The notes under the pieces were generated by a model that was not told the DNA's origin, made no database searches, and saw only the letters and a program-made list of their open reading frames with translations. Positions 1 through 47,065 of a stretch of 64,000 nucleotides of DNA are shown here, piece by piece (positions within the stretch are counted from its first letter, which is position 1; every line of letters starts with the position of its first letter). The DNA is from Strigamia acuminata. Its lineage: Eukaryota > Arthropoda > Chilopoda > Geophilomorpha > Linotaeniidae. Both the position numbers and the translations under genes were made by a program. Where the stretch lies: positions 1-64,000 of the forward strand of contig CASHSZ010000136.1 of assembly GCA_949358305.1 (NCBI GenBank), read 5' to 3'.

Positions 1-991
1 GGCCGACAGAAGGGCAGCCGAGCTGGCCGCCGGGCGACAGCCCCGACTTCCGTCTCGACCGCAACACTCGCCACAACCGAGAGGGACAGCGACAAGGGCG
101 CGCGCGCGGGTCCGCCCTCTAACGCACGATGAGTTTTATGTATATCTAGGGATCCACGTCTTGGCCGGCTACAACAAACAACCCGAATTGCGACACTACT
201 GGTCGAGCAGCAACGTCGGCGATCTCGGTGCACCGGCCGTTGGGCGAGCCATGACACACAAGAGGTTTCAGGAGATTTCGCGGTACCTTCATTACGGCAC
301 GCAACCGTCTTACCAACGGTTGCACGTTACCGGCTCTGCACGCGGCCCCGATGGCGGCAGCACAACGGCGGAAAGGGTGTCATTTTTGAAAGAACGCGAA
401 CAGGACGACCGCGCGATGAAAGTTCGCTTGTTCGCCGACCTGGTCAACAAACGCTTCCGCGCATGTCGGCAACCAAGGACGACGCTCTGCATTGACGAGT
501 CGATGATCGCCTTCCGAGGTCGATCAAAGATAAAAGTGCGTACATTTATTTATTTATTTATTCATCCAGTTGTCTACATTTGTTCATTCGTTCGGCAAAT
601 TTCTTCCAGGTCTTCCAACCGGCCAAACCCATCAAATGGGGATTTGAACTTTTCACGTTGTGCGAAGCGGGCACCGGCTACGTGCTGAACGACGAGGTGC
701 ACTTGGGTAAGCGCACCAAGATGTATTTTGACCCGGACGAAGAGCCGGAACCAGAGTGAGTCAATTCATCGCCTTTTCTATTTCACCTCGGATTGCTTTA
801 CTCCGAACTTGCTAGGTATCCGGGCAGTGTCCTCGGACGCATCGTCGTATACGTGGCCAGACACTATCTCGGCATGGGGTACACTATCGCCTGCGATAAT
901 CGATTTTCGTCCGCCGTGTTATTCGAACACCTCTTCACCCGCCACAACACCATGGCCGTGGGGACGCTGCGGGCCAATTCGGCCCAGATGC

Positions 992-1427
992 TATTGGTTT
1001 TGCAGTGAATTCTTTCGCCATTTGTTAATGTTGCGCGTTTCAGAATTAGCGTAATAGATGTGTACGCCTGTTACTGCGAATGCATGTTTCATCTGTGTTG
1101 TTGTGTTTAGTTTTCTACGCATTATTCTGTTTACTGTTCTCAGCACGGATGGACAACTTTGTGTTTTGGGTGTGCATGTCACCACTGGATATCCGTAGAT
1201 GGATCTGTGTTATTTATTCTTTTGTAAAGAACAAATTCATATCAAATAATATGGATTTGTTCTCCTTTTATTGTGTATCCCGTTTAGAGACTATGTAGCC
1301 TCGAAACGGCATTCGTTTTATGTTTTCCGAGAATTAAACATGGCGGCCACGCTTTGTGCTTACCGCACAGTTTAAATCCGACGTCTTATTAATGGATTCG
1401 ACACACCACTCGCTCCAAGAAACAATA
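992..1427 (+). repeat. copia 5' LTR (436 bp)
   Basis: Matches 7212-7647 base for base as far as I compared, and begins TATTGG and ends AACAATA, giving 5-bp inverted termini TATTG/CAATA instead of the common TG/CA. It contains AATTAAA near 1334 as a possible polyadenylation signal and an AACATGGCGGCC motif near 1338. Confidence 0.95.
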
Positions 1428-1429
1428 CC

Positions 1430-1448
1430 TGGTAGCAGAGGATGGTTT
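1430..1448 (+). other. copia primer binding site, initiator-Met tRNA
   Basis: TGGTAGCAGAGGATGGTTT lies two bases inside the 5' LTR. It is the exact complement of the 3' end of the conserved eukaryotic initiator methionine tRNA, including the CCA. Initiator tRNA is a usual primer for copia elements. Confidence 0.93.
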
Positions 1449-2491
1449 GCATCGTTAGCAACCATCTCGGGACGATAAGCGGACTTCGAGAGCGGTAACG
1501 ACCATCGGACGTTCGCCGACACCGTCATTTTCGTCGCAGAGACGTATCGACGATTTTCGCGAAGTGCGAGCGATTCGGAAGTGTGTGCGGACGATTAGGA
1601 CGTGGTTTTTTTGGACAGAATAGTGTGAGAATTGTTTATTTTCGTTATAAATTGTTTATTTGCCAGTATAACGAAGTTTTACTTCGGTGGCGGCCATTTT
1701 CTTTGGATTGGACTTCATCGCGTACAACGGCGAAGCCAACCAGCGTGTGTTCGGGTCGAAACACGCTCGTTTACGTTGATTTCGTGGAGACAATCGATGT
1801 GCACGTCGATTCGACGATCTTATTAAGATTTTCGACGTGGGACAAACGCCGTAGGTGCCGTTCTGGAGGAAATATACCCGACGACGGCCATTTTGCTTGA
1901 TTTCGTTGGAATCGAGAACGAGGACAGCAGTTTAGTACACCGTGTACGACTGCCAACGTGTGAAGACCTGTGCGGGAATAAATTTGCACACAGGCGACAG
2001 CTATTTGCCGTGAATTGGTTCACGAAGGCGCGGACGAGCGCAACCATCGTACGAGGCAAGGATTCCGTACGAACGACGTTGGATCGACGTTTTCTCATCG
2101 TGGGATCAAGTTGCGACGCATTTCCCGCAACGACGCCGATCAACACAGTGTTTATTATTATTTATTTTCGGGGTCGTGAAACTTTGTATAGATTTAAGTT
2201 TTTGTTTCTGGGTCCTTTAGAATATTCTGCACCCTTTAGGCATTCGCCTAGTGCAGTCTTATTTCGGTTTGGGCTTGTCCGTGGTACAAGGTAGCCGTCC
2301 CGCGCCACCAGGTTGGCGGTCGGAAGCTATCAGGGCGACCAAACTCGAGTATTAATCCTTCTTATAAGGATTTCCCCGGGAAGATTGTTATTATTTTCGC
2401 CTATTATTTTGAGGGAATTGTTGTGTGAAAGTGTATTGGTGTTTAGTGCATCGAATAGTGATTTTGTGTAATAATCTGTGGGATTGTGGAA
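1449..2491 (+). other. copia untranslated leader, about 1 kb
   Basis: The stretch between primer binding site and gag start holds only short ORFs without recognisable similarity. It is unusually long for a copia leader. It contains motifs such as GGCGGCCATTTTC near 1690 and GACGGCCATTTT near 1882, and a small palindrome around 2303-2322. I saw no second gene. Confidence 0.6.
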
Positions 2492-5400
2492 ATGGCGACC
2501 TACGAAAAGGACGGCGATTATCGAGATTATCGAAACATTAGGAAACTCGATGGTGACAATTATGAGTCCTGGTCAGTCCAGGTGAGATTAATTCTCCTAC
2601 AGCAGGGAGTCTGGAGCCACGTTAAGGGCACGGAGCCAAGTTTGCCTTCGACCGCCTCCGCGAAGGAGAAACGCGATTACGAAACGCGAGAAGCGAGGGC
2701 AATATCGACGCTTTGCCTTACGTGTAACGAGGCACAACAATCTGTGGCGGTTGCCCACGAAACGGCACAAGAGATATGGGAAGCCCTAAAAGCCGCCTAC
2801 CAACCGACCACTAGGGCAAGGAAAAACCGGCTCCGACGTGAATTTTTGCAAATGAAATTGCAAGAACGGGAGCAAATGGTCGTGTTTACCACCCGGGTGG
2901 ATCGGAAGGCGGGTGACCTGAAAAATGTGAATGTGACCATGTCTGGAGAGGACATTGCATTCCAGTATATGGACTTCCTCCCTCCGACATACGAGGGAGT
3001 GAAACAAGTTATGTATCACTGGTCAGATACTGAATTCACCCAGTCCAACGTCAAAGACCGACTCCTTGGAGAGTACAACCGTTTAAATGAACAGCACGAG
3101 GAATATGGTGCGCCGACAGCGGAATCTGGAGATAATTCGGGTGCATTCTACAGTCGAGGACGTTGGCAGAGGGGGCGCCCGACCCCAACAACCCAAACAG
3201 ACTATACATGCTATAATTGTGGTGGAAAATACCACTTTGCAAGGGACTGCAAAAAGCCAAAGCAAGGAGGAAATGACCCGACACGTGGAACTTTTGCACC
3301 GATGGCGCGCCGACAAGGACGCGCTGGTGGACGTTCTAGAGGAACCGGCGCAGGTTCAAATCAAGCATTTTTGGACGAACCGTTGTCTTTCTACTCAGCA
3401 GTACATGCCATACAGCAAATGGATTTTCCTGTGATCTCATTGGCATCACAGAAAGCGCCGGAAAGAGATCCCGCCTGGTACATTGATACGGGCGCAACAG
3501 ACCATTTCTCATACAACTATGAATGTTTCACGAATTTTAAACCCCTCGAGAATTTTAGTGTACAATTAGGAGAGGGGAGTTCTGAGATTAGTGGTATGGG
3601 CGAAATTACCTTAATAGCAAATTATGGCAAGGGTGGACGCGAAATTACACTTAAAAACGTGTATTACGCGCCAAAATTTCGAAAAAACCTAATTTCACTC
3701 GGTCGTACAGACGAGGCAGGTCTGAAAACATTCATAGCTGATGGGAAATTAACAATGTTCGAATCAACGATGGACAAGCCAATGTTAACTGCGAAAAGAT
3801 TGTCAAATAGGATGTATCAAGTGAATTGTGCAATTGAAACTCAAAATGTAAACGCATCCGTATTGCCTACGCAAGGGAATACGGATGTCGTGGCGAATAA
3901 ATCGCCTGAAGTTGTTAAAGTGCCATTAACCATGAATTGTTATAAGAAAGCGTTATTAACCCCAATTCGTAAGTCGGAGAAATCCGCAAATGCTGTTGTG
4001 AATCCGAGTAGCGTGTTAGTAAAGCAGGGAAGCGCTGTAAATGCGACCAAAGCTCAACCAATTAAGAAAGTTGAACCAATTAAAGAAGAAATTTATGCAA
4101 AAGTAGTTAATGAGTTGGGGAACGGGGAAAGGAATGGTAAACCCGATAAAGCAGTACCGATGGATTATTGGCACGCCCGTATGGGGCATTTGCATGCGAA
4201 AGGAATTGTTGACATGGAAAAGTCAACCGATATTTATGGAATCAAATTGTCAGACAGGGAAATGAACACTTGTGATTCGTGTGCACAGGCGAAGAGCACA
4301 CGAGCAAGTTTTGCACCAATAGGGGATATCAGGTCAAAAGGAGTTCTGGATTTAATACATATGGACACCTGGGGCCATTCTTCAACAAAATCGATTGGAG
4401 GGGCAAGATATTTCCTATTATTGGTCGATGACTATTCCAGATTTATGTGGATAGTAACAATGAAAACGAAGGATGAAGTGCTAGGCCATTTTAAAACATG
4501 GCAATTACAATTAGAGTGCGCGACATCACGTAAAGTGAAAGCGATCAGAACGGATAATGGGGGTGAATTCGTATCAGCAGCTTGGGCGAAACATGCGAGT
4601 GATTCGGGAATCAAATGTGAGCGCACAACCCCCTACTCCCCTGAAATGAATTCTGTAGCTGAAAGAGGAAACAGAACCATAGTTGAAGGAATAAGAGCAA
4701 TGATGGCAGACACTGGATTGCCAAAGCGACTATGGGCAGAATTAGCACACACAATAGTGTATTTGAAAAATCGTTTTCCCCACTCAACATTGGGAGGCAA
4801 GACACCATATAACGTGTTTTTCAATCGAAAAATGTCTGTTAGACACCTCAAATGTATAGGCTCGAAAGCCTATGTGCATATCCCCGCACAAACAAGAAAA
4901 GATAAATTAGACAAGCGAGCATGGGTTGGAGCCCTGGTGGGATACGCACAAAGTACACGAGGTTATCGAGTTTGGGACCCAAAAACAAATAAGGTTTATG
5001 GGGTTAAACATGTAAAAATTGATGAAGGGACCTACTGGAATGAGGGGGACACAAGAGTTCAAAATGTAGACAAGACATTTGATTATATAAATCTTTCCAC
5101 TCAAGAAGAAGAATCAGATGACGACGTGATTCCTCAGGCTACAGCACCTGCGCCGACAGCACCTACACATCAAATGGTCTTACGAACTAGACCACCAGTA
5201 CCTTTACCCACGACCCCCAAACTAGTGCAAAAGGCATATGGCATGATAATGCCACTTGAAGAGGAACAGCCCATCCTTGAGGAGGAAGGAGCTGTGGGGG
5301 GGATTGAGATAGAGGGGGATGTGGCAGGATTAGATTTGTCAAAGTTGGAATTGGATTCAGGTGATGAACCTTTTGAGGATACTGTTGCCGAACAAGCAAA

Positions 5401-7195
5401 TACAACCGATGAGCCTGAAGAATTACTGAAATTGAACATGCAAGAATGGCAAAGATTTGCAAAAGTCCGTGCAAGGGGGAAAACAGCTGGAAAAGTGGAT
5501 GTTTATTACATGACACCTGGACAAGACCGTTGCCGGAGTCGCACTGATGTGATGCGTTGGTGTGAAGAAGAAGGTTTTCAATACGAGGAGGATTTGTTTG
5601 ATTTCAAACATGAACATCTGGAATTGCCTTATGCAGGTTTTTGCAGCATTGAGCCAGAGACTTACGAACAAGCTATTTCTGACAGGGATCGTTGGGATTG
5701 GTCAAAAGCCATGGACGAGGAAATTGATATATTTGACGAACGAAAAGTTTATACCGAGGTTGACATTGCTCCCGATCAAACATTGCTTGGAAGCAAATGG
5801 ATTTACAAATTGAAACGAGATCATACGGGGGCAATTAAACGTTTTCGAGCACGCCTTGTTGCACAAGGCTTTAAGCAACGACCGGATATCGACTTTAAAG
5901 AAGTCTTCTCGCCGGTTATTAATTTTGTCCTCATATTGATATTTTTCTGCACGCTAGTTGTTTTGTGTAACTGGCGCGACACGCACCTTGACGTAAAGGC
6001 AGCCTACCTTTACGGTGACTTAGATATTCCCCAGTACATGGCCATACCAAAAGGTTATCAAACCAAAACGAACAAAGGGAAATGTTGGCGCTTGGACAAA
6101 GCCCTATACGGCCTGCACCAGTCAGGCCGTATGTGGTTTGAAAAGTTACATGAAAAATTAATTGACATTGGTTTTACACCATTCCCGGGTCTCAATTGTG
6201 TTTATGTCTACAAGAGAGATGCGATTTTAATCGTTTACGTGGATGATCTCGTTCTCTTTTCAAGGGACGATTTTACTGAAAAATGTGTTCTCAAGTGGAT
6301 TTCAAATGCATTTGACATCGTGAATTTGGGACCCGTAACGATGCTATTGGGAATAGAATTTGAGCGTGTAGGCAAGAACATTTTCGTGCACCAGGGCAAA
6401 TATATTGACAAATTGTGCGAGAAATACAGAATTGACTACTCGCATCGTATCAAAGTTCCAGGAACCGTTGGTACGATGATCCGAAGTGTGCGTCCTGGTG
6501 AGCGAGTGGATGTGGAATTCCCCTATCGCGCGCTTGTTGGCAGTTTGCTATTCATTGCCATGAGAACAAGACCAGACATCTTGTTCTCAGTAATTGTGTT
6601 ATCACAATATAACGAGGTGCACTCTTACAAGCATGTGCAAATGCTGCTGCAAGTGCTAAAGTACTTATCTCAAACAAGGGATTTCTGCATCAATTTGGGA
6701 TTATGTAAGAATACAGGCATGTCGATTTACACAGATGCCTCTCATGCCTCGGATTTAGACCAGAGAAGAAGTTTCGGGGGGCACATCATCTACATTGGTG
6801 GGGTTCCCGTGTCTTGGGCTTGTCGCAAACAGAAATTGACAGCGCTCTCGGTGATGGAGAGTGAATTTATTGCCATCGTAGACGGTGTGCGGGAGGTGAT
6901 CTGGTTGGAGAGGTTGTTTGAAGCCGATGTCTTGCGTGATCCCCAGAGAGTTAAACCAATTGTATATGCGGATAGCACAGCCGCAATACAATACGCGAAA
7001 AATAGAATCGAAAATAGAGCGAACAAACATATAGAGGTTCGTTTTCACTTTTTGCGAGATTGGTACACAAAGGGAACTTTTGGAATACATCATATTCCGG
7101 GCGTGTCCAACGTAGCGGACATATTAACCAAATGGTTACCCTTCCCTCGATTATCGACCCTTTGTGAACGAATTTTTGCAGAGCGGCACAAATGA
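2492..7195 (+). CDS. gag-pol: copia Gag-Pol polyprotein with MBD-like insert
   Basis: A single ORF of 1567 codons makes capsid and enzymes from one polyprotein. Residues counted from the ATG at 2492: Gag N-terminal region with the DNYESWSVQV block (about 22-31); zinc knuckle CYNCGGKYHFARDC (240-253); protease DTGATDHFS with Asp332; integrase His/Cys zinc site (YWHARMGHLHAKG, then CDSCAQAK) and catalytic Asp625, Asp688, Glu724; an MBD-like segment (about 982-1039); reverse transcriptase with LGSKWIYKLKRD, YVDD (1249-1252); RNase H with TDASHASD and ADSTAA. No frameshift or stop interrupts it. The start ATGGCG sits in a good context and was preferred to an upstream in-frame GTG. The MBD-like block is not a normal part of copia Pol. 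Likely competent for transposition, judged only from intact motifs. Confidence 0.96.
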   Translation: MATYEKDGDYRDYRNIRKLDGDNYESWSVQVRLILLQQGVWSHVKGTEPSLPSTASAKEKRDYETREARAISTLCLTCNEAQQSVAVAHETAQEIWEALKAAYQPTTRARKNRLRREFLQMKLQEREQMVVFTTRVDRKAGDLKNVNVTMSGEDIAFQYMDFLPPTYEGVKQVMYHWSDTEFTQSNVKDRLLGEYNRLNEQHEEYGAPTAESGDNSGAFYSRGRWQRGRPTPTTQTDYTCYNCGGKYHFARDCKKPKQGGNDPTRGTFAPMARRQGRAGGRSRGTGAGSNQAFLDEPLSFYSAVHAIQQMDFPVISLASQKAPERDPAWYIDTGATDHFSYNYECFTNFKPLENFSVQLGEGSSEISGMGEITLIANYGKGGREITLKNVYYAPKFRKNLISLGRTDEAGLKTFIADGKLTMFESTMDKPMLTAKRLSNRMYQVNCAIETQNVNASVLPTQGNTDVVANKSPEVVKVPLTMNCYKKALLTPIRKSEKSANAVVNPSSVLVKQGSAVNATKAQPIKKVEPIKEEIYAKVVNELGNGERNGKPDKAVPMDYWHARMGHLHAKGIVDMEKSTDIYGIKLSDREMNTCDSCAQAKSTRASFAPIGDIRSKGVLDLIHMDTWGHSSTKSIGGARYFLLLVDDYSRFMWIVTMKTKDEVLGHFKTWQLQLECATSRKVKAIRTDNGGEFVSAAWAKHASDSGIKCERTTPYSPEMNSVAERGNRTIVEGIRAMMADTGLPKRLWAELAHTIVYLKNRFPHSTLGGKTPYNVFFNRKMSVRHLKCIGSKAYVHIPAQTRKDKLDKRAWVGALVGYAQSTRGYRVWDPKTNKVYGVKHVKIDEGTYWNEGDTRVQNVDKTFDYINLSTQEEESDDDVIPQATAPAPTAPTHQMVLRTRPPVPLPTTPKLVQKAYGMIMPLEEEQPILEEEGAVGGIEIEGDVAGLDLSKLELDSGDEPFEDTVAEQANTTDEPEELLKLNMQEWQRFAKVRARGKTAGKVDVYYMTPGQDRCRSRTDVMRWCEEEGFQYEEDLFDFKHEHLELPYAGFCSIEPETYEQAISDRDRWDWSKAMDEEIDIFDERKVYTEVDIAPDQTLLGSKWIYKLKRDHTGAIKRFRARLVAQGFKQRPDIDFKEVFSPVINFVLILIFFCTLVVLCNWRDTHLDVKAAYLYGDLDIPQYMAIPKGYQTKTNKGKCWRLDKALYGLHQSGRMWFEKLHEKLIDIGFTPFPGLNCVYVYKRDAILIVYVDDLVLFSRDDFTEKCVLKWISNAFDIVNLGPVTMLLGIEFERVGKNIFVHQGKYIDKLCEKYRIDYSHRIKVPGTVGTMIRSVRPGERVDVEFPYRALVGSLLFIAMRTRPDILFSVIVLSQYNEVHSYKHVQMLLQVLKYLSQTRDFCINLGLCKNTGMSIYTDASHASDLDQRRSFGGHIIYIGGVPVSWACRKQKLTALSVMESEFIAIVDGVREVIWLERLFEADVLRDPQRVKPIVYADSTAAIQYAKNRIENRANKHIEVRFHFLRDWYTKGTFGIHHIPGVSNVADILTKWLPFPRLSTLCERIFAERHK
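5435..5608 (+). other. MBD-like (methyl-CpG-binding) segment inside copia Pol
   Basis: The encoded segment runs from LNMQEWQRFAKVRARG to LFDF. It reproduces the family pattern of methyl-CpG-binding domains: a W near the start, an R-x-x-G loop, AGKVDVYYMTP, then RSR and a terminal FDF. Spacing Arg993-x9-Asp1003 and Asp1003-x11-Arg1015 equals the spacing of the Arg, Asp and Arg that read methyl-CpG in MBD2-type domains, and the two Tyr residues follow the Asp. It lies between integrase and reverse transcriptase, where copia elements normally have a variable linker. Function is inferred from this pattern. Confidence 0.8.
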
Positions 7196-7210
7196 AAAGA
7201 AAGAGGGGGA
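7196..7210 (+). other. copia polypurine tract
   Basis: AAAGAAAGAGGGGGA, a 15-base purine run directly after the stop codon and one base before the 3' LTR. It is the expected primer for plus-strand DNA synthesis. Confidence 0.9.
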
Positions 7211-7211
7211 T

Positions 7212-7647
7212 TATTGGTTTTGCAGTGAATTCTTTCGCCATTTGTTAATGTTGCGCGTTTCAGAATTAGCGTAATAGATGTGTACGCCTGTTACTGCGAA
7301 TGCATGTTTCATCTGTGTTGTTGTGTTTAGTTTTCTACGCATTATTCTGTTTACTGTTCTCAGCACGGATGGACAACTTTGTGTTTTGGGTGTGCATGTC
7401 ACCACTGGATATCCGTAGATGGATCTGTGTTATTTATTCTTTTGTAAAGAACAAATTCATATCAAATAATATGGATTTGTTCTCCTTTTATTGTGTATCC
7501 CGTTTAGAGACTATGTAGCCTCGAAACGGCATTCGTTTTATGTTTTCCGAGAATTAAACATGGCGGCCACGCTTTGTGCTTACCGCACAGTTTAAATCCG
7601 ACGTCTTATTAATGGATTCGACACACCACTCGCTCCAAGAAACAATA
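7212..7647 (+). repeat. copia 3' LTR (436 bp)
   Basis: Second copy of 992-1427, same length and ends, followed by the target duplication GATGC at 7648-7652 and then by the resumed transposase exon (CATCAGATTTTTCG). Confidence 0.95.
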
Positions 7648-8508
7648 GATGCCATCAGATTTTTCGACACTCAGACGATATCAAGGCAACCGGAGAGGTA
7701 ACGCATTTGCTCGGACGTGAACGCGCGTTTGATTTATTCAATTATTAATTTTTATTCTATCCATCTCTCTCATTTTTTTTTTTTTTTTTGTCGGCGATTT
7801 CATACAACGACAAAACGGTCGGTTGGTGCTCACTGCGTGGCGAGACACAACCACCGTGAGTTTGCTCAGTACGAACGTCGACCCACTGTCAGCGGCCGGC
7901 CGTGTCTTGCGTCGTATCGGTGGCAGGAACGTGGATATTGCATGTCCGGCGCCCGCACTGTCCTACATCGAAAATTTTCATTGGGTAGACGTCTTGAACC
8001 GACTTGTCTCCTCATTCCACATCGGACGCCGGTCCAGTTATTGGCACCGATACTTCTTCTTTCAAAAGCTGAATCAAGGTGGGGTCAAGGCCCCAATCTC
8101 TGATTATTATCATTATTGTTATCGTTACAATCTTAATCTCGACTCGTCGTTTTCCATTTATTCCCCGCAGTGTGTGTCAACGCCCGAATCAACATGCGCG
8201 GAGTCACAGCCTCCGCGCGCGGCGATCGATCGCAATTACAATTCCGAAGGGCACTTGTCGCTCAACTCTTGGCTCGGGAGAGGACGAGGACGACGACCAC
8301 GGCCTCGCGCGCGGCCCTACCTACTGGACCCGTCGTCCATCGAATGGAGCGCGCGGGGAAAAGTTGTCGATGCGTGGTGTGTCGCGAGGTCCACAAAGAA
8401 CGCCACGAGAGCAGTTTCTGGTGCGCTCCCTGCCGGACCCACCTATGTCGCCCACGCTACCGCAATTGTTTCCAACTCCACGAAGCCGGCGTGGGTAGAT
8501 TGCCGTGA

Positions 8509-35371: not shown

Positions 35372-37810
35372 CTACCAAACAACCCCTTTCGTCTCAGGAA
35401 TGGCCACGGGAGTTGCATTCTCGGAAATTGAGAATTTTGGCAATCCGCGGGCTGGGCCAGACATCATCCCCGTATTGACGTGGAGCCAGACGTCACGAAT
35501 GTCTGCCGTCTTCTTGAGGACATGGTCGTAATTCATTTCGAATTTCTCTTCCTCGCTGCTCGGGGCTCGGCGTACTGCAATGAGTTGGCGGTGACGCGAT
35601 CGGTATTGCAACTCGCGCACAGATTTTTCAAGCCATTTAAACGCCTCTTTGCAAAGAGTAGAGCTGTTTTTTAACAAAGCTCTCGTGCCATCGGAAAACT
35701 TTAACTTTGGGTAATAATACCTGATTTTGCCATATTCCATATTCTGGATCATGGAAATGGTCGGCACTTCCTCTTTCCCACTGGCGGACGGTTCCACTGA
35801 ACAAATTCCTGCCTCCGTGGCGTTCGTGGTTGTGGTCAGCGCCCGATACACCGCTGGCACATAGGTGACTGACGGCATGTAGGTGACGTAAGGGCGGCTG
35901 ACTTGAGCAAATGCAGTGGTGGAAGGAGCACTTGCACCTGTTGGTGTTGCCCTTGGTCTGAACGGGGCCCCAGCAGGTCTCCACAATGCACAAGCTTGTG
36001 CGCCAAACGTTTGCGAGTCTCGACGCTTTTCCATCTCTTCTAATCTCATCGTCCATTCCTGTCTCAGGCGAATCGCGCTCTGATTGCATGTTTCTCCATT
36101 CGCCAGATTTGCATACACCAAATTGCTCCGAAGCAACACCGCATCGTAGAGGATTGACTTCCAGTTGGTAAGCATTTCAGGTGGAATTCCTAATGGCGTT
36201 GTATACAACACAGTATCGCCTATGAACGATGCCTCATCGGTGTAGAATACCCCCGGAAACAGTAGGCGTTGCTGCACTTTCACCGTTTTCTTCTGGAATT
36301 TTTGCAGCCAGCGTTCAGTTTGCTCCCTCAGTGGTACTTGCACAAATTCCCTGGCCAAACGCTTCATCTCGTTCACCGCTTCATTGAGCTGGGCGGCCTG
36401 ATATCCATCCAAATTTGTGAGGACCAGTTTCTGGGTGTTCAACGGGTATTTCAAATAACCGCGCCACAATCTGTAGAAATCCTTGTCGTAATCTTCTTGG
36501 GGTCTCATTGGTTGTTCCCCCGGGCACAATGCGAGTTCTGGGACCGGAATCGAGTGGTCCATCAGTGGAATGGGTCCCTCCATTGGCAACGTGTGCGGGT
36601 CTACAGTTGGCGCTTTCTTCTTTTTCAGACGATCATGTTCAATCGATTTTCTCGGACGTAACATTTTTGGCTTTCCCTTTGCCTTTGGCGCTTTCACTTT
36701 CAGCGCCATCAGTTCTTGCAATTGGGGAGGCGGAGGTGGGGCTTCCGGCTCTGCTGATGCTTCTTGAGTCAAGCTTGGGACCTGAATGGTCATTGCTTCT
36801 TCAGGGGAGGATGGCCTTGGTGATGGGGTGTCAGGTACATCCTTGTGTGGTGCTGGACTCTGGAACACCGACGAGTCTTCTCCTCCTGTAGCGACTGCTT
36901 CCTTCCCTGCGTCCGACGAATACTCCGATTCTTCTGCCTCGTCGACAATCACGAAATCCTCTTGCCACGAGTCGTCCCACTCAACCAACGGGATGATGGG
37001 CTCGTCGGGGTCGCAGGTGCCCTTGATTTTGATTAAAAGTGCATCCTTTCTTGACATCGGCAGAGTAATTTCGCGTTGAGCCTTCGACTTCTTGTGCGAC
37101 CTCCTGCATTTTTTTGCTCTCTTTGGTGGCGTGACTTCGCGTGCTTCCTCATGCCACTCGATGGGAGAGTGTCGACTTCTTCTCGAGCGCTGATCTTCGA
37201 GACGTTCCCAATCCTTCATCACTTTAGTTGGAGCATATCGTCTGCGCGGTCGATTTCGATTGGTGTTTGCAACTCGATTCCCCACGGCTCCAGTTAGATG
37301 CAACTGATGCATCTGAGTCTGCGTTTTTGCGAAATGTTCGGGTGGTGACGTCACAGGCGGGCCTCCTAGCTTTTCCTGCTCTTCTAAAAAAGCTTGTTGC
37401 TTGACTATAAATTCTGCTGCTACTGGGCCAGCTTCCGCCTTGATCCTCGCCATAACTCGCTTAGCAAACTTTTGCCGATTTGTTGCCGGGTCACAATACA
37501 CTTCATAATCCTTTGCCTCTTCGTAAACCATTGGATATAATTCCGCCAATAACTCATTGAAAATGGGTCCATGCGGGTCTTCCAGTTCGGATATGATTTG
37601 ACGTAAGGCGTGCGCTTCCAATGTGTCTCCATGGCAGATTCGCTTCGTGGTCCCCCAATATTTTTTGATTTGGTTGGTGAGCCACTTCCGAGTTATCCAA
37701 GCGTCATATCCTAGTCGCTTGAACACTATTTGAATCTTGTCCGGGATCCTTCCACGGAAGATGTTTAGTCTAATGATTGCACCTTCTGGAATCGCCTCCC
37801 AGGACGCCAT
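35372..37810 (-). CDS. gypsy third ORF, 812 aa, not envelope-like
   Basis: Intact ORF in the position where env lies in envelope-bearing elements, but no signal peptide, membrane segment or fusion-type features were seen. N-terminal 150 residues form a charged domain (MASWEAIPEGAIIRLNIFRG, RLGYDAWITRKW). Then come basic patches (PPKRAKKCRRSHKKSK, RPRKSIEHDRLKKKK), a Pro/Glu/Ser-rich middle (PEAPPPPPQLQE), a helical region around DFYRLWRGYLKYPLNTQKL, and a C-terminal charged domain. The start ATGGCG follows an acceptor-like TTTTGGTAG|ACTGAACAAGCC, so expression from a spliced RNA is plausible. I do not recognise the protein; a nucleic-acid-binding accessory role is a guess from its charge. Confidence 0.85.
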   Translation of the reverse strand: MASWEAIPEGAIIRLNIFRGRIPDKIQIVFKRLGYDAWITRKWLTNQIKKYWGTTKRICHGDTLEAHALRQIISELEDPHGPIFNELLAELYPMVYEEAKDYEVYCDPATNRQKFAKRVMARIKAEAGPVAAEFIVKQQAFLEEQEKLGGPPVTSPPEHFAKTQTQMHQLHLTGAVGNRVANTNRNRPRRRYAPTKVMKDWERLEDQRSRRSRHSPIEWHEEAREVTPPKRAKKCRRSHKKSKAQREITLPMSRKDALLIKIKGTCDPDEPIIPLVEWDDSWQEDFVIVDEAEESEYSSDAGKEAVATGGEDSSVFQSPAPHKDVPDTPSPRPSSPEEAMTIQVPSLTQEASAEPEAPPPPPQLQELMALKVKAPKAKGKPKMLRPRKSIEHDRLKKKKAPTVDPHTLPMEGPIPLMDHSIPVPELALCPGEQPMRPQEDYDKDFYRLWRGYLKYPLNTQKLVLTNLDGYQAAQLNEAVNEMKRLAREFVQVPLREQTERWLQKFQKKTVKVQQRLLFPGVFYTDEASFIGDTVLYTTPLGIPPEMLTNWKSILYDAVLLRSNLVYANLANGETCNQSAIRLRQEWTMRLEEMEKRRDSQTFGAQACALWRPAGAPFRPRATPTGASAPSTTAFAQVSRPYVTYMPSVTYVPAVYRALTTTTNATEAGICSVEPSASGKEEVPTISMIQNMEYGKIRYYYPKLKFSDGTRALLKNSSTLCKEAFKWLEKSVRELQYRSRHRQLIAVRRAPSSEEEKFEMNYDHVLKKTADIRDVWLHVNTGMMSGPARGLPKFSISENATPVAIPETKGVVW

Positions 37811-38814: not shown

Positions 38815-41800
38815 TTAGAGATAATCCGGAGGCTTTATCTTCGCTCTGTCGCGAAGTGGGTATTGTTTTAAAGCCTTTTTCTTTTCACGAGAATTCAATT
38901 GTTGATATTTCTTTTTGATTTCAACTTTCTTTTCCACTCTCTTTCCCCTCTTTTTGGAAAATGAAGCAGCTTGCTTTTCATTTCCAAAAACATCATTTTC
39001 TGGGGCGATTAGTGGAATGTCTGCATCCGTGTCGTCTGAACTTTCTACAACATATTTTTCTGCAAGTTCATTTGCAGCTTCTGCACCTTGCACATTTTCT
39101 GCATTTGGTGAATTTTCTGCACTTTGTGCACTAGTTGGTGCATTTTCTACGTCTTGTGCGACATCTTGCACATTTCTGTGCACAGATTCCGCACTTTCTG
39201 CGCCTTGCGCACTGTCATTGTCCTGAACGTTTTCTGCACGTTCTTCATTTTGCGTGTCGTCTGCACTTTGTGCATTTGCAATTTCTTGCGTTTCGACGAC
39301 TGTGTCCAAATCAAAATTGACTTCAAAATTTTGCGAATTTTGCAAGTCTGACTGTTTTTGTGTTTCTTGTGCATTAGTTGACGTTTGCACATTTTCTGCG
39401 ACTTCCGTACTTGGCACATTTTCTGCCTCTTCCACTACTTCTGAATTCTCCCCTCTTGCTGGAATGTCATCGAATAAGGTGTTTACCACCTCAGCATTGG
39501 GGTTACTTTTAGTTTGGCCTTTTAACCAAATTTCTTGGTTAAATTCAGGGAAGTAGGGTGACAATTCGGATTTGTGAATTGAGTTAAAAATTCGATTGTC
39601 TTTTAGCCGGCGCAATCTGGCAGCTCCACCCTGATGTATTTGGGTAATAACATAGGGGCCAGTACGCTTGTCCGCAATACTCGCAGAGATACCAGCTGAG
39701 GCTTTTGAGAGCGCGTGGTTTTCTCTCCAAACAAGATCATTGATTTTGAAGTTCTCAAATTTGGCATCATCTTGATGATTGCGCACTCTCTCTCTTAAGT
39801 CTACAATATGCGCCATCATGTGGTGGTACGTGTCGCTTATCACTCTTTGTAATCTTTGGACATACTCATGGGGCCGTTTTGGGTCAATCCGAAGAATTCC
39901 ATCGAGAACTCTCGGATCCCAAGGAATACGAAGTTCTCTGCCGCAGTTGAGATAGGCAGGGGAGTATCCTCGACCCCTTGACTCAGTGGACCTGATGCTG
40001 AACGCTATTTCTCTTAAATATTCGTCCCAGCGGCGGTGCAGGTCTGTGAAAATTGCAATGACATACTTAATGTCCCTGTTGAGCCTCTCGACTGGATTGG
40101 CTTGCGGATGATACGGGGAAGTGAATTTTGGGATAATTTTGAAACGTTTGCAAAACTCCTTGTAGATTCGCGCTTTAAATTGCGGGCCATTGTCGGATAT
40201 TATTTTTAGAGGAAATCCCCAGTCCATGGACGTGTCGTAAACACAGTCAGATATTATTTGGGCTGTGGGGTCCTCCAATGGGTACAATTTGGGCCAATGA
40301 GTCGCGACGTCCAAAATAACCAAAATGTAATTATTTCCTTCGATCGTCCGTGGTTTTGGGCCTGTCAAATCAATGCTTAAGCACTCAAATGGTGCATAAG
40401 GCCCAATTTCAGCCGGCTCAACTTTAGTTTTTGGTCGTGGTTTGCACGCCTGACATCTGACACAGTGCTTGATAAATTTTGCAGTGTCTCTTTTCATGCC
40501 GTCCCAAACATAGACGCAGCGCATCCGGTAAAGTGTTCTTGCAATACCGCTGTGGCTGGCCAATGGGTGGCCGTGCATCAACCAAAGTACTCGAAATCTT
40601 AGCGACTTTGGTACCACGACTTTCAACGCACTACTATCCTCGCCTAGCTCATCAGAAATCGTTGGTTGATATCGCATGAGCAAATCTTCCTCGAGGATGT
40701 GTCTGGTCGCCAATACTTTGAAATTTCTTCTTTCAAGGCGAGTGGTTACGTGTGGTGGGAACTGCTGTGTTTCCAGATAGAATCGGATAACTTGACACTG
40801 TTTATCTGCCTTTTGTTCAGCTATAAATTCCTCACGAGTAGGTGGAGTGCAGTTTAACTGCTCTGTCACTTTGATGATGAACGCATTTGCCATTGCATTG
40901 TTGGATGTTGGCATGTAACTCCATTGTTTCTCCTCTCGTAGGTCTTGTTTTGTCTCCGCCGTTGGTGCAACATATGAATTACACCAATAAGTGACCATTG
41001 GGTCGTCAGGTTTTTTCGGTGTCGGCAGCTGATTCCAATTCTTAATTTCCCAAGAATGGATTTCCGTCGGGCAGTAGTGTGTGTCACCGTCTGCTTCTCC
41101 GCATTCATCGTCACCACTTGTCAAATCTGTTGGTGCGCGCGATAATGCATCGGCAAGCACGTTGGTTGGGCCCTTGATGTACTGGATTTTAAAGTTGTAC
41201 GCCATGAGCTCCATTTGCCAGCGGGCAAGGCGGCCTGTAGGCTCATCTAATCCCATGAGCCATTTTAAGGCCTGATGGTCCGTCTGCACAGTAAAATGGG
41301 TGAATTCCAGGTATTCTCGGAATTTTCGCAACGCCCAAATTACCGCCAGACATTCGAGATCTGTGACACTGTAATTCAGTTCTGCAGCCTGGAGACTGCG
41401 GCTGACATATACGCAGGGGACCTCGAGTTCTAGGCCGTTGACCATGTTCTTTTGCATTAACGCCGCTCCGAGCCCTTTTTTGCTTGCGTCGGTGTGGACA
41501 ATAAATGGACGGGTTAAGTCCGGCAACGCCATCGTCTCGGAGTCAGTGAGTAGTTTTTTGACTTCATCAAACGCTCGTTGGTGATCTTCTGTCCACATGA
41601 AATCAATACCCTTTTTCAAGAGCGGACGCAGGGGCTCGGCCACAGTGGCCAAATCCTTTAAAAGTCTGTGGAAAAAATTCACCATTCCAAGAAAGCGCTG
41701 TAACTCGGTAAGATTGGTTGGCGCTGGAAACTTAGCAATGGCGTCCACTTTTTTCGGATCTGCGCTTACACCGTTGACTCCCAAATTGTAGCCCAAAAAT

Positions 41801-43704
41801 TTCAGTTCTTTCCGACAAAATTTTGACTTTTCAGGATTCACGTGCAAGCCAGCTCTTTCCAATTTTGATAAGACGTCGTCCACATGGCGCATGTGCTCTT
41901 CGTATGTTTTTGACACGATGACGATGTCATCCAAGTACGCCCAGGCGTACTTGCGATATGCATCGCCGAGCACTTTCTCGATTAGGCGCTGGAATGTCGT
42001 GGGCGCGTTGACAAGCCCAAACGGCATAACGTTAAACATCAAACGGCCAATCGGACTCCAGAACGCCGTCTTTGGTCTATCTTCTGGGCGCAACTCAATC
42101 TGCCAGTAACCCTTGGTCAGATCTATTGTCGTCACCCAGTTGAACTCTCCTAGTTCTCGCAGAATCTCCGTGATTGTGGGCATTTGGGGCGGATCATACA
42201 AAGTGTGCTCATTTATCGGCCGATAGTCGATGCATAACCGAGGATCTGATCCGGTTTTTGACACTAATACGATCCGCGCAGCATAATCTCCCTCCGCATC
42301 CGACACAAAACCTTTGTCCTTGAACTCTTGACAGAGTTGGCGCAAAATTTCGCGCTTTTGCGGGTTCCAGCTTCGAAATGGCACTCTAATAGGCTTTTTT
42401 GTGTCCAATTCGATTGTATGCTGCAAAACATGTGTTTTCCCTGGCGTTTTGGTGAGAATTTTTTCATGCTTTCTAAGCACTGCTTCTAACTGAAGAGCCT
42501 CTGTTAGCTGAAGTTTGGCTTCTTCCACCAAGTTGTCTACGCCATTGTCCATTCTCAATCTTGCATTGAAAGCATTGTAACATGTTTCTTTTGCAAATGT
42601 CCGGAATGTTGATTCTGGTTGCTCTAACGTTTTTTCCCATTTATCCAGCACGGACTGTGGAACATATGGAGTTGGTACTTCCAAAGTGGTTATGAAATTC
42701 CACTTTCCGCTGAGGGGATTCGGCTGGATTCTCATTCTTTTCATGACATCATTCCCCATGAGCATGAAGTGCATCTCATGCGGCAACACCAAAAAATGGT
42801 GCAACATCATGCCGTGTGTCCATCGGAATAATATTCGAATTGAACCGATTGGTTGCACTTTTTTGTCCGCTGTGTTTATGGCCATGTTAGGCCCAACTTT
42901 GGTAATTTTATCTTCCAAATCCATTGCTTTCACTAGCGGTAGTGACACACAACTTCTGTTGGCACCCGAATCTAATGTTGCGGCTATGCTTCCGCTCGCA
43001 GTGAGGATGTCCATTGTTGTCATTCCTCCTAGTTGTTCGTCGTCGGGGATTAAAACATTGAAAACTCTAATTCTTGGGCCTTCTTCAGGGGCTAGCTTTG
43101 GAAGTTCGTACAGTAATGGATCCCACTCGACGGGTTCGACTGGTGTGTTCACCATCCAAGCTGCCTCTGAAGGGTCATTCTCATATGAATTTTTCACATT
43201 GGCCCAAAAAATAGTTGCTTCATTTTCCTCATCAAGTCCCACCTCCTTCAGTGCTTGTGTGATTTCATTCACAAAATATGTGTTGTCAACTTCTTCAATT
43301 TCCTCACTCTCAGGAATTGTTGATAATTCTGATAATGGAAATTGTAATTTGACAATTTTGCCGTCTTCGGGTTTGCAAGTTACTTCATCTTGAGCAGCTC
43401 GCATTGTCCCTATGGCTTCTGGAGGCGTTAATACACAAGGGATCTTTTCCTTTGCAACAAGAGCATTATCAAGTACTTCTTTCTTTTCAACTTTAGAAGA
43501 TGCCAATTCTGGTGGCGGAAATCTAATTGACACTATTTCTCCGCCAATGATTTCACAAATCATTTCTCCTTTTCTTTTCCCCGTCTCTGGATCGATAGAG
43601 GGTGACACTTCTTTTTTACTTGCAGTTACGCCTTCACTTTCCTGCAATTCTTCCGATTTCTTTGATGGCGCGGGATCCTGATTTACTGGTCCCGCGCTCG
43701 CAAG
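38815..43704 (-). CDS. pol: gypsy Pol: protease, reverse transcriptase, RNase H, integrase
   Basis: Read in the -1 frame relative to gag from the slippery site at 43704-43710; no ATG is needed. In the main ORF from 43647: protease LDSGANRSCVS (Asp226), reverse transcriptase DLTKGYWQI and YLDD (571-574), RNase H HTDASKKG (Asp720) and QTDHQAL, integrase His/Cys zinc site (HPLASHSG to CVRCQAC, about 1025-1068) and catalytic Asp1093, Asp1152, Glu1188. The C-terminal 300 residues are an Ala/Gln/Asn/Glu-rich low-complexity repeat followed by a basic tail ending PLRDRAKIKPPDYL. Order PR-RT-RH-IN places it in Ty3/gypsy. No chromodomain was seen. Confidence 0.95.
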   Translation of the reverse strand, partial: LASAGPVNQDPAPSKKSEELQESEGVTASKKEVSPSIDPETGKRKGEMICEIIGGEIVSIRFPPPELASSKVEKKEVLDNALVAKEKIPCVLTPPEAIGTMRAAQDEVTCKPEDGKIVKLQFPLSELSTIPESEEIEEVDNTYFVNEITQALKEVGLDEENEATIFWANVKNSYENDPSEAAWMVNTPVEPVEWDPLLYELPKLAPEEGPRIRVFNVLIPDDEQLGGMTTMDILTASGSIAATLDSGANRSCVSLPLVKAMDLEDKITKVGPNMAINTADKKVQPIGSIRILFRWTHGMMLHHFLVLPHEMHFMLMGNDVMKRMRIQPNPLSGKWNFITTLEVPTPYVPQSVLDKWEKTLEQPESTFRTFAKETCYNAFNARLRMDNGVDNLVEEAKLQLTEALQLEAVLRKHEKILTKTPGKTHVLQHTIELDTKKPIRVPFRSWNPQKREILRQLCQEFKDKGFVSDAEGDYAARIVLVSKTGSDPRLCIDYRPINEHTLYDPPQMPTITEILRELGEFNWVTTIDLTKGYWQIELRPEDRPKTAFWSPIGRLMFNVMPFGLVNAPTTFQRLIEKVLGDAYRKYAWAYLDDIVIVSKTYEEHMRHVDDVLSKLERAGLHVNPEKSKFCRKELKFLGYNLGVNGVSADPKKVDAIAKFPAPTNLTELQRFLGMVNFFHRLLKDLATVAEPLRPLLKKGIDFMWTEDHQRAFDEVKKLLTDSETMALPDLTRPFIVHTDASKKGLGAALMQKNMVNGLELEVPCVYVSRSLQAAELNYSVTDLECLAVIWALRKFREYLEFTHFTVQTDHQALKWLMGLDEPTGRLARWQMELMAYNFKIQYIKGPTNVLADALSRAPTDLTSGDDECGEADGDTHYCPTEIHSWEIKNWNQLPTPKKPDDPMVTYWCNSYVAPTAETKQDLREEKQWSYMPTSNNAMANAFIIKVTEQLNCTPPTREEFIAEQKADKQCQVIRFYLETQQFPPHVTTRLERRNFKVLATRHILEEDLLMRYQPTISDELGEDSSALKVVVPKSLRFRVLWLMHGHPLASHSGIARTLYRMRCVYVWDGMKRDTAKFIKHCVRCQACKPRPKTKVEPAEIGPYAPFECLSIDLTGPKPRTIEGNNYILVILDVATHWPKLYPLEDPTAQIISDCVYDTSMDWGFPLKIISDNGPQFKARIYKEFCKRFKIIPKFTSPYHPQANPVERLNRDIKYVIAIFTDLHRRWDEYLREIAFSIRSTESRGRGYSPAYLNCGRELRIPWDPRVLDGILRIDPKRPHEYVQRLQRVISDTYHHMMAHIVDLRERVRNHQDDAKFENFKINDLVWRENHALSKASAGISASIADKRTGPYVITQIHQGGAARLRRLKDNRIFNSIHKSELSPYFPEFNQEIWLKGQTKSNPNAEVVNTLFDDIPARGENSEVVEEAENVPSTEVAENVQTSTNAQETQKQSDLQNSQNFEVNFDLDTVVETQEIANAQSADDTQNEERAENVQDNDSAQGAESAESVHRNVQDVAQDVENAPTSAQSAENSPNAENVQGAEAANELAEKYVVESSDDTDADIPLIAPENDVFGNEKQAASFSKKRGKRVEKKVEIKKKYQQLNSREKKKALKQYPLRDRAKIKPPDYL

Positions 43705-43710
43705 TTTTTT
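43668..43710 (-). other. -1 ribosomal frameshift signal (gag/pol)
   Basis: Slippery heptamer A AAA AAC (43710-43704) sits in the gag frame as CAA AAA AAC. A 6-nt spacer TTGCGA follows, then a perfect 8-bp stem GCGCGGGA/TCCCGCGC (43697-43690 with 43675-43668) closing a 14-nt loop. The gag stop TAA lies in the loop. Slipping back one base enters the open pol frame. Confidence 0.92.
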
Positions 43711-46700
43711 TGCACGGCTTCAGTGAGGGCGTCCACCAACTTTTCAATGTCCATTTTTGGTGCAGACTGCTTTTTTGGTTGTGGGCACTGTCTTGCCCAA
43801 TGTCCTAATGCACCGCAGTTATGACAAGGTGCGTTGTCAGGCGTCATTCTTGGTGTAGCAGCTGTTTCTACACTTCCTTCACTTTTAACTGACGTAGTCG
43901 TTGCTTGACTATTGCTTTCAGTTTCCTGTGATTGCGCTTTTGCTGGAAATTCCAGTGAAAAAGTTTTTGGCGCTTGACTTTGACCTTCTTTGGTGTCACT
44001 AGAGACTGCTGACTTTGGCTGCATTGGCGGCTTGTATTTGGCCGTTGTTGCATTATTTTTAGCGTAAAATGCGTTTGTTGCCTCAACCAAAGTTTCAATG
44101 TGCTCGTCAGTTAATTCCATAGAGATTATTTGGTTACTTACCATATCTCTTTGATCATCAACTTCCTGTACCCATCTAGCTGTGGGTCTAGTTGGAATTT
44201 TTGGAGGAGGGTGAGGAGTTGGTTCATTATCTTTGCCGCGCTGAAATGTGACTTCCTTGCGAGGCATGGTGAATAGTGATCGAGGTTGCATCACTTTCGT
44301 ACCTCCTCTAGCAAAGTTTGCTTGGCGTCGCAACAACTCCTCTTGTCCCCTTTGCTCCTCCGGTGGCAAATCTTTGATGTATCGATCGTCAATGTACATC
44401 TGATTTGTTCTCATAAATTCAGCCAATTTCTCGAAAGAGTTTGCCAAGGGCGCTTTGACCATTGACAACACTTTCTCTGAGAATTCCGTTAAACCTCGAC
44501 GGAATTGGCGATCAGCTGAAAAGTCATCAACATTGTATGGTAATTGATCAAGTAATTCCTCCGTCCTTCGCAAATACGAGCGGAGATCTTCACCTAACAT
44601 TTGTTTCAAGTTATCCCAATTATGGTACAAAGTTGCATTTGATTCTCCATATTCTTTCATGAAAGCACGCACAAATTCATTCCATGACGCAAATGAGCGA
44701 CCATAGAACCATTTTGCCGCACCTCCAGTCAGAATTTTGGGAATAATCTTGTCTAATGTGGTTCTCGGGTCAATGCCGTGACTTCTTGCAATTTGCATTA
44801 CGTCATCAAAAAATTGAGTTCCGGCTTGCCAAGTTCCATCAAACGGGTCTGGTGTTATTCTATCCCATTTTATTTGACTTGGGTCAGTGAATGTGTGTGA
44901 CCAATTTCCAGCACAATATTTTCTAATTCTTTTTTGCAAAACCTCTTCCATCTCTTGAGCCTTGGATGGAATTCTTGCTAAACGTTCATCAATTTGACTA
45001 TTAATGAATTCTCGCCACTGTGCAGGAGTCATTTGAGACGCGCCGCCATTACCAGCAGGTATTCTTTGCTCATCTGAACGATATTCGGATCTGTGTTGAC
45101 GATCTCCGAAATTTTGTGAATAATTTCCTTCATTTCGTCGGAAATATTCCGAATCCGAATATTTTCGCTCGTCTCTTTCGTTTTGTGTGCCTCCTGGTGG
45201 TGGACTATTGCGGCTTCTTTGCCGTTCATTATGACGGGAGTATCTGTCTTGATGAGAATCCCTTCTTTGGCGCGACTCATCACGCTGTCTCGAGTTACTT
45301 CTCTGTTGTGATCGATCTCTGTAATTTGGATCGTCACCTTGACGTTCGTCATTCGTGTAATAACGCTGATCGTTATATTGATAACGTTGATCCCTTTCAT
45401 TTGGGTTATCACGAGATGACAAATAATGGTCACGTTGTTGATGTGAAACGTCATCACGACGCCTATCTCGGGTTTCATAATGGCGTTTCCTTTCTGGAAA
45501 TTCTTGTGTTGGGACTACTTGGTCACCTTGTGAGGGATAATGCTCAGTCTGGCGCCTTCCCTCATTTCGTTGTGGAAGGTGTCGCTCATCCGCATCTTGA
45601 CTTGACGCGAAAGGATTTGCTGAAGCGCCTTGCTCTTGTTTTCCATCGTCTGTATTTTCCAATTTGCTCGAATCGTCTTCCCAAGGGCGAAAGGTTCTGT
45701 TGGATTTCGGATTTTTCGATTGTTCGAAATTTGACGCACCAATTTGGTGTTGGTCATATTTTCCTGGCCAATCTCCTGCGTACACGTCGCGTGAACGTTC
45801 ATTTTGTCCTTTCGTCGCTGGAATTGTGACGGTTTCCGGTTGCAAATTAACTTCTGTTGTCTTTGTTCTGTGTTGAGTAGTCTGTCCTTGGTTGTTGGGA
45901 CAATGTTGAGCACTCCACTGGTCAATGACTTCAAATAAATTTCTAGTTGGTGACGATAGCAATTTTTTGCTTGCTGAATCTTCTTCAGCACCTTCCCTCC
46001 CTCTTTTGGACGAAGTCCCAAAAGAATCAGTCCTTCTCTGTCCAGTATCTGCTGGACGCGAGCTTCTCTGCGGTTCCGCAGCTCTCGGATAATTGATGTG
46101 GGCGATATACTTCATATCTTCTAGCTCCTTGCGCATCCGCTCGGCATCTTCTTGCGCTTGCAGAGTCGCTTGACGAAGACGGACATTTTCATCTTGAACT
46201 GCTGTCTCCATCGCCTTTTCTCTTGCAAACAAAGCTTGTTGCCGAGTGTCCAAGCGCACTTTAAAAGCTTCCATTTGGTCTTTTTCTTGTTGTAGCCGGT
46301 TTTCTTTCTGCTTCGTAACAAGCTCTAATTCCAATTTGGAATTTTTGAATTGGCATTCCTCCAACCTCATTTGTTTCATGAGTTGGTATTCCTCTGAGCC
46401 AGCAATTCGAATGTCGTCCTCGCGTGCTTGTATTGCTGCCAATCGCTCCGCCGCTTCTTCATCCGTAATCGGGCCGCCCTCTAAATATTTCTGCTGCGCT
46501 TCCGTCAAACTGGTAGCTGCAGCTTGCATCAGGTCGTGAATGCGTTGGCGGACCTTATCCAGTCTTTCCTGGGTCGGAGTGCTGGTCCCAGATGTTACAG
46601 CGCTAATGTCCCTACTCCTGGACGCGGCAATACGGTGCGCTTTCAACAAACGACCCCTTTTCTTGGCCACTACTAGCAACTCTTCGCGTGATAAATGCGA

Positions 46701-46961
46701 TAAGTCGGCCTTCAAACTGGCAGTAGAACTAACATTCTCTGCTATTGACATGGGAGAGGGTGGGCGTGAGACGAGAGTATGGTCAACATTGTCCGAATTA
46801 GGCCACAGATCTTGACTGTATGGGTTCGGCGTTCGACTCCCGTCGGCTGACCGTGACGACGATCGCGAGCGTGTGTCGTGATGTCCTTCCGACGCTCCGT
46901 CCCTCTGTCTGGTCCTGCGTGCCGGACCTTTCCCTCTTCCTGCTTCTCTGTCTTGTTGCAT
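43683..46961 (-). CDS. gag: gypsy Gag, 1092 aa
   Basis: Structural polyprotein that packages the RNA. The ATG at 46961 gives MQQDREAGRGKG; an upstream in-frame TTG was not used. The N-terminal half is a long coiled coil (QKYLEGGPITDEEAAERLAA, KEKAMETAVQDENVRLRQ), the middle is Arg/Asp/Gln/Tyr-rich and disordered. A capsid-like retrotransposon Gag block follows (WNEFVRAFMKEYGE, LRSYLRRTEELLDQLPY, FRRGLTEF). Near the end is one zinc knuckle CHNCGALGHWARQC. The length is roughly double that of common gypsy Gags because of the added coiled coil and disordered region. It ends inside the frameshift stem-loop. Confidence 0.93.
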   Translation of the reverse strand: MQQDREAGRGKGPARRTRQRDGASEGHHDTRSRSSSRSADGSRTPNPYSQDLWPNSDNVDHTLVSRPPSPMSIAENVSSTASLKADLSHLSREELLVVAKKRGRLLKAHRIAASRSRDISAVTSGTSTPTQERLDKVRQRIHDLMQAAATSLTEAQQKYLEGGPITDEEAAERLAAIQAREDDIRIAGSEEYQLMKQMRLEECQFKNSKLELELVTKQKENRLQQEKDQMEAFKVRLDTRQQALFAREKAMETAVQDENVRLRQATLQAQEDAERMRKELEDMKYIAHINYPRAAEPQRSSRPADTGQRRTDSFGTSSKRGREGAEEDSASKKLLSSPTRNLFEVIDQWSAQHCPNNQGQTTQHRTKTTEVNLQPETVTIPATKGQNERSRDVYAGDWPGKYDQHQIGASNFEQSKNPKSNRTFRPWEDDSSKLENTDDGKQEQGASANPFASSQDADERHLPQRNEGRRQTEHYPSQGDQVVPTQEFPERKRHYETRDRRRDDVSHQQRDHYLSSRDNPNERDQRYQYNDQRYYTNDERQGDDPNYRDRSQQRSNSRQRDESRQRRDSHQDRYSRHNERQRSRNSPPPGGTQNERDERKYSDSEYFRRNEGNYSQNFGDRQHRSEYRSDEQRIPAGNGGASQMTPAQWREFINSQIDERLARIPSKAQEMEEVLQKRIRKYCAGNWSHTFTDPSQIKWDRITPDPFDGTWQAGTQFFDDVMQIARSHGIDPRTTLDKIIPKILTGGAAKWFYGRSFASWNEFVRAFMKEYGESNATLYHNWDNLKQMLGEDLRSYLRRTEELLDQLPYNVDDFSADRQFRRGLTEFSEKVLSMVKAPLANSFEKLAEFMRTNQMYIDDRYIKDLPPEEQRGQEELLRRQANFARGGTKVMQPRSLFTMPRKEVTFQRGKDNEPTPHPPPKIPTRPTARWVQEVDDQRDMVSNQIISMELTDEHIETLVEATNAFYAKNNATTAKYKPPMQPKSAVSSDTKEGQSQAPKTFSLEFPAKAQSQETESNSQATTTSVKSEGSVETAATPRMTPDNAPCHNCGALGHWARQCPQPKKQSAPKMDIEKLVDALTEAVQKNLRARDQ

Positions 46962-47065
46962 GGTCAATCAAAGAGTGAAGAAAGAAACAGACTTATAACT
47001 AACAAGATTTCACAAAAAATTCTGGAGGTCCCTAGAATTTTACACAAATGCAAATCCACTTAAGG

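Follow-up and report, generated by a model that had tools for sequence, protein, structure and literature searches.

The window analysed here, a stretch of 64,000 nucleotides of Strigamia acuminata DNA, carries on its forward strand a complete copia element that spans positions 987-7652 with its target-site duplications (TSDs). The long terminal repeats (LTRs) at 992-1427 and 7212-7647 are 436 bp long, begin with TATTG and end with CAATA, are identical at 436 of 436 bases and are bordered directly on the outside by the same five bases, GATGC (987-991 and 7648-7652). Directly 3' of the 5' LTR lies a primer binding site (TGGTAGCAGAG, 1430-1440), which we take to be of the initiator tRNA-Met type, and a polypurine-rich stretch 5' of the 3' LTR (7200-7211) is presumably the polypurine tract. 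A single Gag-Pol open frame encodes 1567 aa from the ATG at 2492 (2492-7195), or 1569 aa when read from the GTG at 2486 (2486-7195). From 5' to 3' it contains Gag (Retrotran_gag_2, PF14223, 2585-3097, 94 bits), a zinc knuckle (PF00098, 3206-3256) whose 20.6 bits are slightly below the cut-off of 20.8, the Pol beta-barrel domain of the protease region (PF22936, 3476-3721, 69.9 bits), the integrase core (rve, PF00665, 4349-4642, 48.4 bits), an SH3-like domain 3' of this core (PF25597, 4820-5038, 87.3 bits), a methyl-CpG-binding domain (MBD; PF01429, 5438-5608) and the reverse transcriptase (RVT_2, PF07727, 5744-6457, 176.1 bits). The succession of PF14223, PF22936, PF00665, PF25597 and PF07727 between the LTRs, together with the TSD, is that of Ty1/copia elements. 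The LTR identity and the GATGC duplication indicate that the insertion is recent, and the element is an intact, full-length, young copia (Ty1-like) LTR retrotransposon of S. acuminata.

The insertion adjoins a fragment of a piggyBac-like transposase (PF13843, 98-688, forward strand), and the window as a whole lies on a 305-kb contig (C145) outside the chromosome set. The reverse strand carries a large gypsy element (38815-46967) with Gag, a weak protease-like match, reverse transcriptase, RNase H and integrase; its open frames are 1094 and 1610 aa long, and its reverse transcriptase piece is found at 100% at seven more places in the genome among the matches listed. Beside it, an open frame of 812 aa (35372-37810, reverse strand) gave no Pfam match at E 0.1 and is possibly a third gene of the neighbouring gypsy element. 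Also on the reverse strand, at 48841-49398, a frame of 185 aa encodes a thymidine kinase in a single exon (PF00265, 178.8 bits).

The match of the copia element's MBD to Pfam PF01429 scores 31.6 bits, above the cut-off of 21 (E 1.2e-7). The domain follows the SH3-like domain of integrase at a distance of about 133 residues and precedes the reverse transcriptase by about 45. An MBD-like module had been placed at 5435-5608 by the initial annotation, which had also pointed out the spacings Arg-x9-Asp and Asp-x11-Arg. Both the module and its spacings were recovered, the latter at the level of codons: when residues are numbered from the ATG at 2492, they are formed by Arg993 (CGT, 5468-5470), Asp1003 (GAT, 5498-5500) and Arg1015 (CGG, 5534-5536), which we take to be the equivalents of R111, D121 and R133 of MeCP2; Tyr1005 of the domain is encoded at 5504-5506. 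When the single sequence was compared with the PDB, these spacings lined up with MBD4, which was the top match (E 2.1e-5), followed by MBD1, plant MBD6, MeCP2 and MBD2. At E <= 1e-3, a profile built from nine S. acuminata copies matched 30 distinct PDB sequences, each an MBD except for one MBD-like TAM domain, with MBD2 at 1.8e-14 and MBD1, MBD4 and MeCP2 nearly equal. With an alignment of 11 rows as input, an MBD fold was confidently predicted (mean pLDDT 86.1; only 43.4 from the single sequence). The predicted fold resembles MBD4, MeCP2 and MBD2, best of all MBD4, and MBD or TAM domains make up the top 36 among the 50 fold matches listed. The MBD stretch by itself matched nothing in the protein database at E <= 0.001. 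An MBD with intact reading residues is present, but the label "MBD2-type" is too specific, as MBD4 is the best match by single sequence and by fold, and MBD2, MBD1, MBD4 and MeCP2 score nearly alike in the profile.

Conservation of the binding residues, likewise proposed from the window sequence, was found across the genome. Neither the arginine fingers nor the aspartate vary among the nine S. acuminata sequences aligned, a set that omits the copy L018, which has an internal stop. In subfamilies B and C the methyl-reading tyrosine is replaced by Val or Ile. For the MBD, dN/dS amounts to 0.107, 0.072, 0, 0.043 and 0.092 in five pairs of related copies; for the 150 residues upstream the same five pairs give 0.155, 0.22, 0.224, 0.092 and 0.089 (the other five of the ten pairs are saturated at synonymous sites and were excluded). 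The MBD is thus under purifying selection, as the initial annotation had suggested checking on related copies. A coincidental motif, produced by chance or by the composition of an acidic linker, is contradicted by the Pfam match, the PDB profile, the fold, the selection and the conservation together; nothing was found in its support, and its probability is negligible. The stretch that separates integrase from reverse transcriptase is a genuine MBD and, both arginine fingers and the aspartate being intact, is predicted to bind methylated CpG.

To place the MBD carriers among copia elements, a reverse transcriptase tree was computed from 32 distinct rows, representing 64 of 69 sequences (five had too little reverse transcriptase and were left out). 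A single branch, supported at 100/100, divides the 19 MBD-bearing rows from the 13 that lack an MBD, in a tree that has a midpoint root only and long branches flagged by the program. The MBD-less rows were drawn from 30 loci among the 150 best-scoring copia places, and in all 30 of these loci an MBD is absent within 1.5 kb of the reverse transcriptase match. The MBD is present in several subfamilies that group as one clade within the copia sample, and one capture suffices for this sample. In the protein database, a query comprising MBD and reverse transcriptase found 368 relatives at E <= 0.001, and PF01429 occurs together with RVT_2 (PF07727) in 10 among the 120 relatives listed. Ten database relatives were chosen for a comparison of MBD conservation; outside these ten, the MBD-like stretch of some relatives is altered or degenerate, with a loss of reading residues. 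Two of them, P0004 and P0005, give weak profile matches (10.0 and 11.6 bits) and have neither the arginine fingers nor the aspartate; they may represent a captured reader with a changed function. A further relative, P0021, resembles these two by eye only (profile score 1.0 bit).

The chromosomal distribution of the copies was analyzed in the S. acuminata assembly GCA_949358305.1 (237.5 Mb), in which C12 is the X and C13 the Y according to its description (PMC10556566). MBD places were collected from two genome searches, each represented by its 150 best-scoring rows, and are samples rather than censuses. They amount to at least 227 distinct places, a weak partial match of 35 bits at C3:20309085 being left out. 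Within 3 Mb of a chromosome end lie 127 of the 200 placed MBD copies, compared to 24/147 MBD-less copia copies, 23/147 gypsy copies and 29% for a uniform scatter; the controls are the placed copies among the best-scoring matches. The bias persists at thresholds of 1, 2 and 5 Mb and after merging copies less than 100 kb apart (83/148 for MBD copies, 23/128 for copia and 22/131 for gypsy). The near-end share is 50-89% in each of seven MBD groups and 4-36% in each of seven control groups, the groups being blocks of equal score rather than tree clades, with places shared between some of the MBD groups. By subfamily, 25/48 copies of B, 18/23 of C and 6/12 of the window's own are near ends. The bias is seen on 10 of 11 chromosomes, among which C10 has one MBD copy.

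On several chromosomes the copies prefer one end. Chromosome 1 has 21 copies at the high end and 3 at the low end, chromosome 2 has 14 at the low and none at the high end, and chromosome 5 (C6) has 18 at the high and none at the low end; the asymmetry is weaker on the X (11 and 6) and on C5 (2 and 5). Such crowding would fit the pericentromeric heterochromatin of one-armed chromosomes. The Y is an exception: MBD copies are in excess there (18 compared to 9.9 expected) but scattered along its length. The X also has an approximately twofold excess (18 compared to 9.2 expected, among the matches listed). No prior report of a chromosome-end distribution was met in literature searches that had other aims, and we make no claim that it is unpublished.

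The piggyBac-like family represented next to the insertion (by the piece at 98-538 of the fragment named above) has no MBD match, and 16 of its 23 placed copies are near ends, with 21 of 44 copies on unplaced contigs. Two other piggyBac-like groups are not end-biased (2/13 and 4/19). These counts use 109 of 131 rows; the 22 dropped rows are mostly second pieces and include at least two separate fragments. An MBD is therefore not required for accumulation near ends, and the end domains gather more than one kind of element.

Insertion sites were read for CpG content in 17 of 20 flanks, no LTR end being recognised in L079 and L083 of the window's subfamily and in L090 of subfamily B. For the window's subfamily, four of ten flanks fall within CpG-dense satellites with units of 53 bp and 9 bp and 14-17 CpG per 100 bp; two of these four share an array, on which they are separated by about 4 kb. 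Subfamily B, with an average of about 4.4 CpG per 100 bp over seven flanks, has no CpG-dense surroundings. The mean over the 17 flanks is 7.2 CpG per 100 bp, compared to 7.1 for the window itself; GC and CpG values were compared with those of the window, of five DNMT loci and of four copia loci that lack an MBD. The CpG-rich satellites that adjoin MBD-copia insertions are located at L088:527-1187 and L081:408-972. The best matches of the 53-bp unit are on C6 (16.03-16.14 Mb), C4, C5 and C1, and the 9-bp unit is CGGTTACGT.

We consider it probable that two statements jointly explain these observations, namely that the element is an MBD-carrying copia of a kind known from arthropods and that its MBD tethers integration to methylated repeat chromatin. 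Processing of the polyprotein would leave the MBD on the C-terminal tail of integrase, where it could bind symmetrically methylated CpG via its two arginine fingers and hold the pre-integration complex on methylated, CpG-dense repeat chromatin. The element would then land in gene-poor, repeat-rich domains, such as those close to an end on most chromosomes, the Y and CpG-rich satellites, and insertions there would do little harm and would not be purged. The crowding of MBD copies near ends agrees with a steering to methylated heterochromatin, without proving it. Several findings stand against targeting: a piggyBac-like family without an MBD has the same end bias, subfamilies B and C keep theirs with a changed reading tyrosine, only half of the copies of the window's subfamily are near ends, the flanks of subfamily B are poor in CpG and the mean over all flanks equals that of the window, and some database relatives have lost reading residues.

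The same distribution might arise by retention if the elements inserted widely and survived mostly in the gene-poor ends and the Y, where recombination is low, while the MBD served another step, for example by anchoring the complex to chromatin or by obstructing the MBD silencers of the host. The end concentration of a piggyBac-like family devoid of MBD is in line with such retention, as is the spread of the Y excess along the length of that chromosome. However, copia and gypsy copies that lack an MBD, many of which have long open frames, are not kept near ends, and we judge retention rather unlikely as the main cause. The age of the copies bears on it less clearly: the 3' ends of the near-end B copies L093, L094 and L096 are 99.6-99.8% identical to one another, which marks these copies as young; the interior copies sampled show a comparable similarity, however, and the point is not decisive. 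Since the MBD carriers form one reverse transcriptase clade, an effect of the MBD and an effect of lineage are inseparable in the distribution. The integrase of this clade might target the end domains in some other way, for instance through a chromatin partner that contacts its tail, with the MBD as passenger or auxiliary; the persistence of the bias in subfamilies with an altered tyrosine is what such a lineage effect would lead one to expect. Purifying selection on the MBD and the invariance of its reading residues in this genome argue that DNA reading matters, and a pure lineage effect appears unlikely. The MBD might also counter silencing with no role in integration, by competing with host MBD proteins on methylated LTRs or by recruiting partners. 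It could indeed be expected to recognise the element's own copies when these are methylated, but this role predicts neither a position beside integrase nor a distribution bias, and it is improbable.

Tethering of integration by the MBD can be extended to a broader proposal, which we put forward tentatively and with some doubt: the MBD may be a working integration guide that directs a whole copia clade to methylated repeat-rich domains, located close to one end on most chromosomes and all along the Y, from which copia elements devoid of an MBD stay away, and the subfamilies with Val or Ile may be starting to change what the domain reads, which would make them a natural series of targeting variants.

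Elements of this kind, named CopiaMBD, are reportedly Copia elements whose MBD binds CpG-dense methylated TE DNA in Strigamia maritima, and their young copies are said to accumulate in CpG-dense regions. The initial annotation knew of no described case; a retrotransposon family of arthropods that carries a functional MBD was in fact published in 2019 (de Mendoza, Pflueger and Lister, Genome Res 2019, 29:1277; PMC6673714). The window element shares with CopiaMBD a copia Pol with an MBD in an arthropod, the genome having 54 arthropod cuticle-domain matches and thousands of 25-mers of the TTAGG telomere repeat, compared to a handful of control hits. A slime-mould source, considered with Physarum Tp1 in mind, was rejected on the strength of these cuticle domains and telomeres. 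It differs in coming from S. acuminata, a congener of S. maritima, and from an assembly with chromosome-scale positions, and it is tied to CopiaMBD by description rather than by sequence. It is an additional case of an already described kind of element. Methylation in S. maritima is heavy for an arthropod: published values are 33.18% overall (PMC8857917) and 75.8% of 719 annotated TEs highly methylated (PMC7343188). Two other sources concern different objects, namely an unrelated host transcript with a methyl-CpG-binding domain (PMC5055719) and plant MBD proteins rather than an element-borne MBD (PMC8616336).

The present analysis adds a congener, an intact young copy, conservation and selection at the level of residues, and a chromosome-scale distribution with an internal control and a counter-example. 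A genome with abundant MBD-bearing and MBD-less copia elements that have opposite sampled chromosomal distributions makes testable the question of whether DNA methylation can attract a mobile element and not only silence it.

Among copia-type elements, Ty1 and Ty5 have targeting signals on the C-terminal tail of integrase, which sets the target by protein contact; these are short peptides that contact AC40 and Sir4, in contrast to a folded DNA reader. The chromodomain reads histone rather than DNA methylation, and the elements that carry it, the chromoviruses, are gypsy and not copia elements. Like the element described here, they have a chromatin reader in Pol (Gao et al. 2008, Genome Res 18:359); the analogy to gypsy chromodomains drawn in the initial annotation is supported. 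Capture of a part of the DNA methylation machinery itself is known from retrotransposons of the LTR Copia and DIRS types, which carry cytosine methyltransferases (de Mendoza et al. 2018, Nat Commun 9:1341, as cited in PMC12344493); what those retrotransposons acquired is a writer of DNA methylation, and what the Strigamia element carries is a reader.
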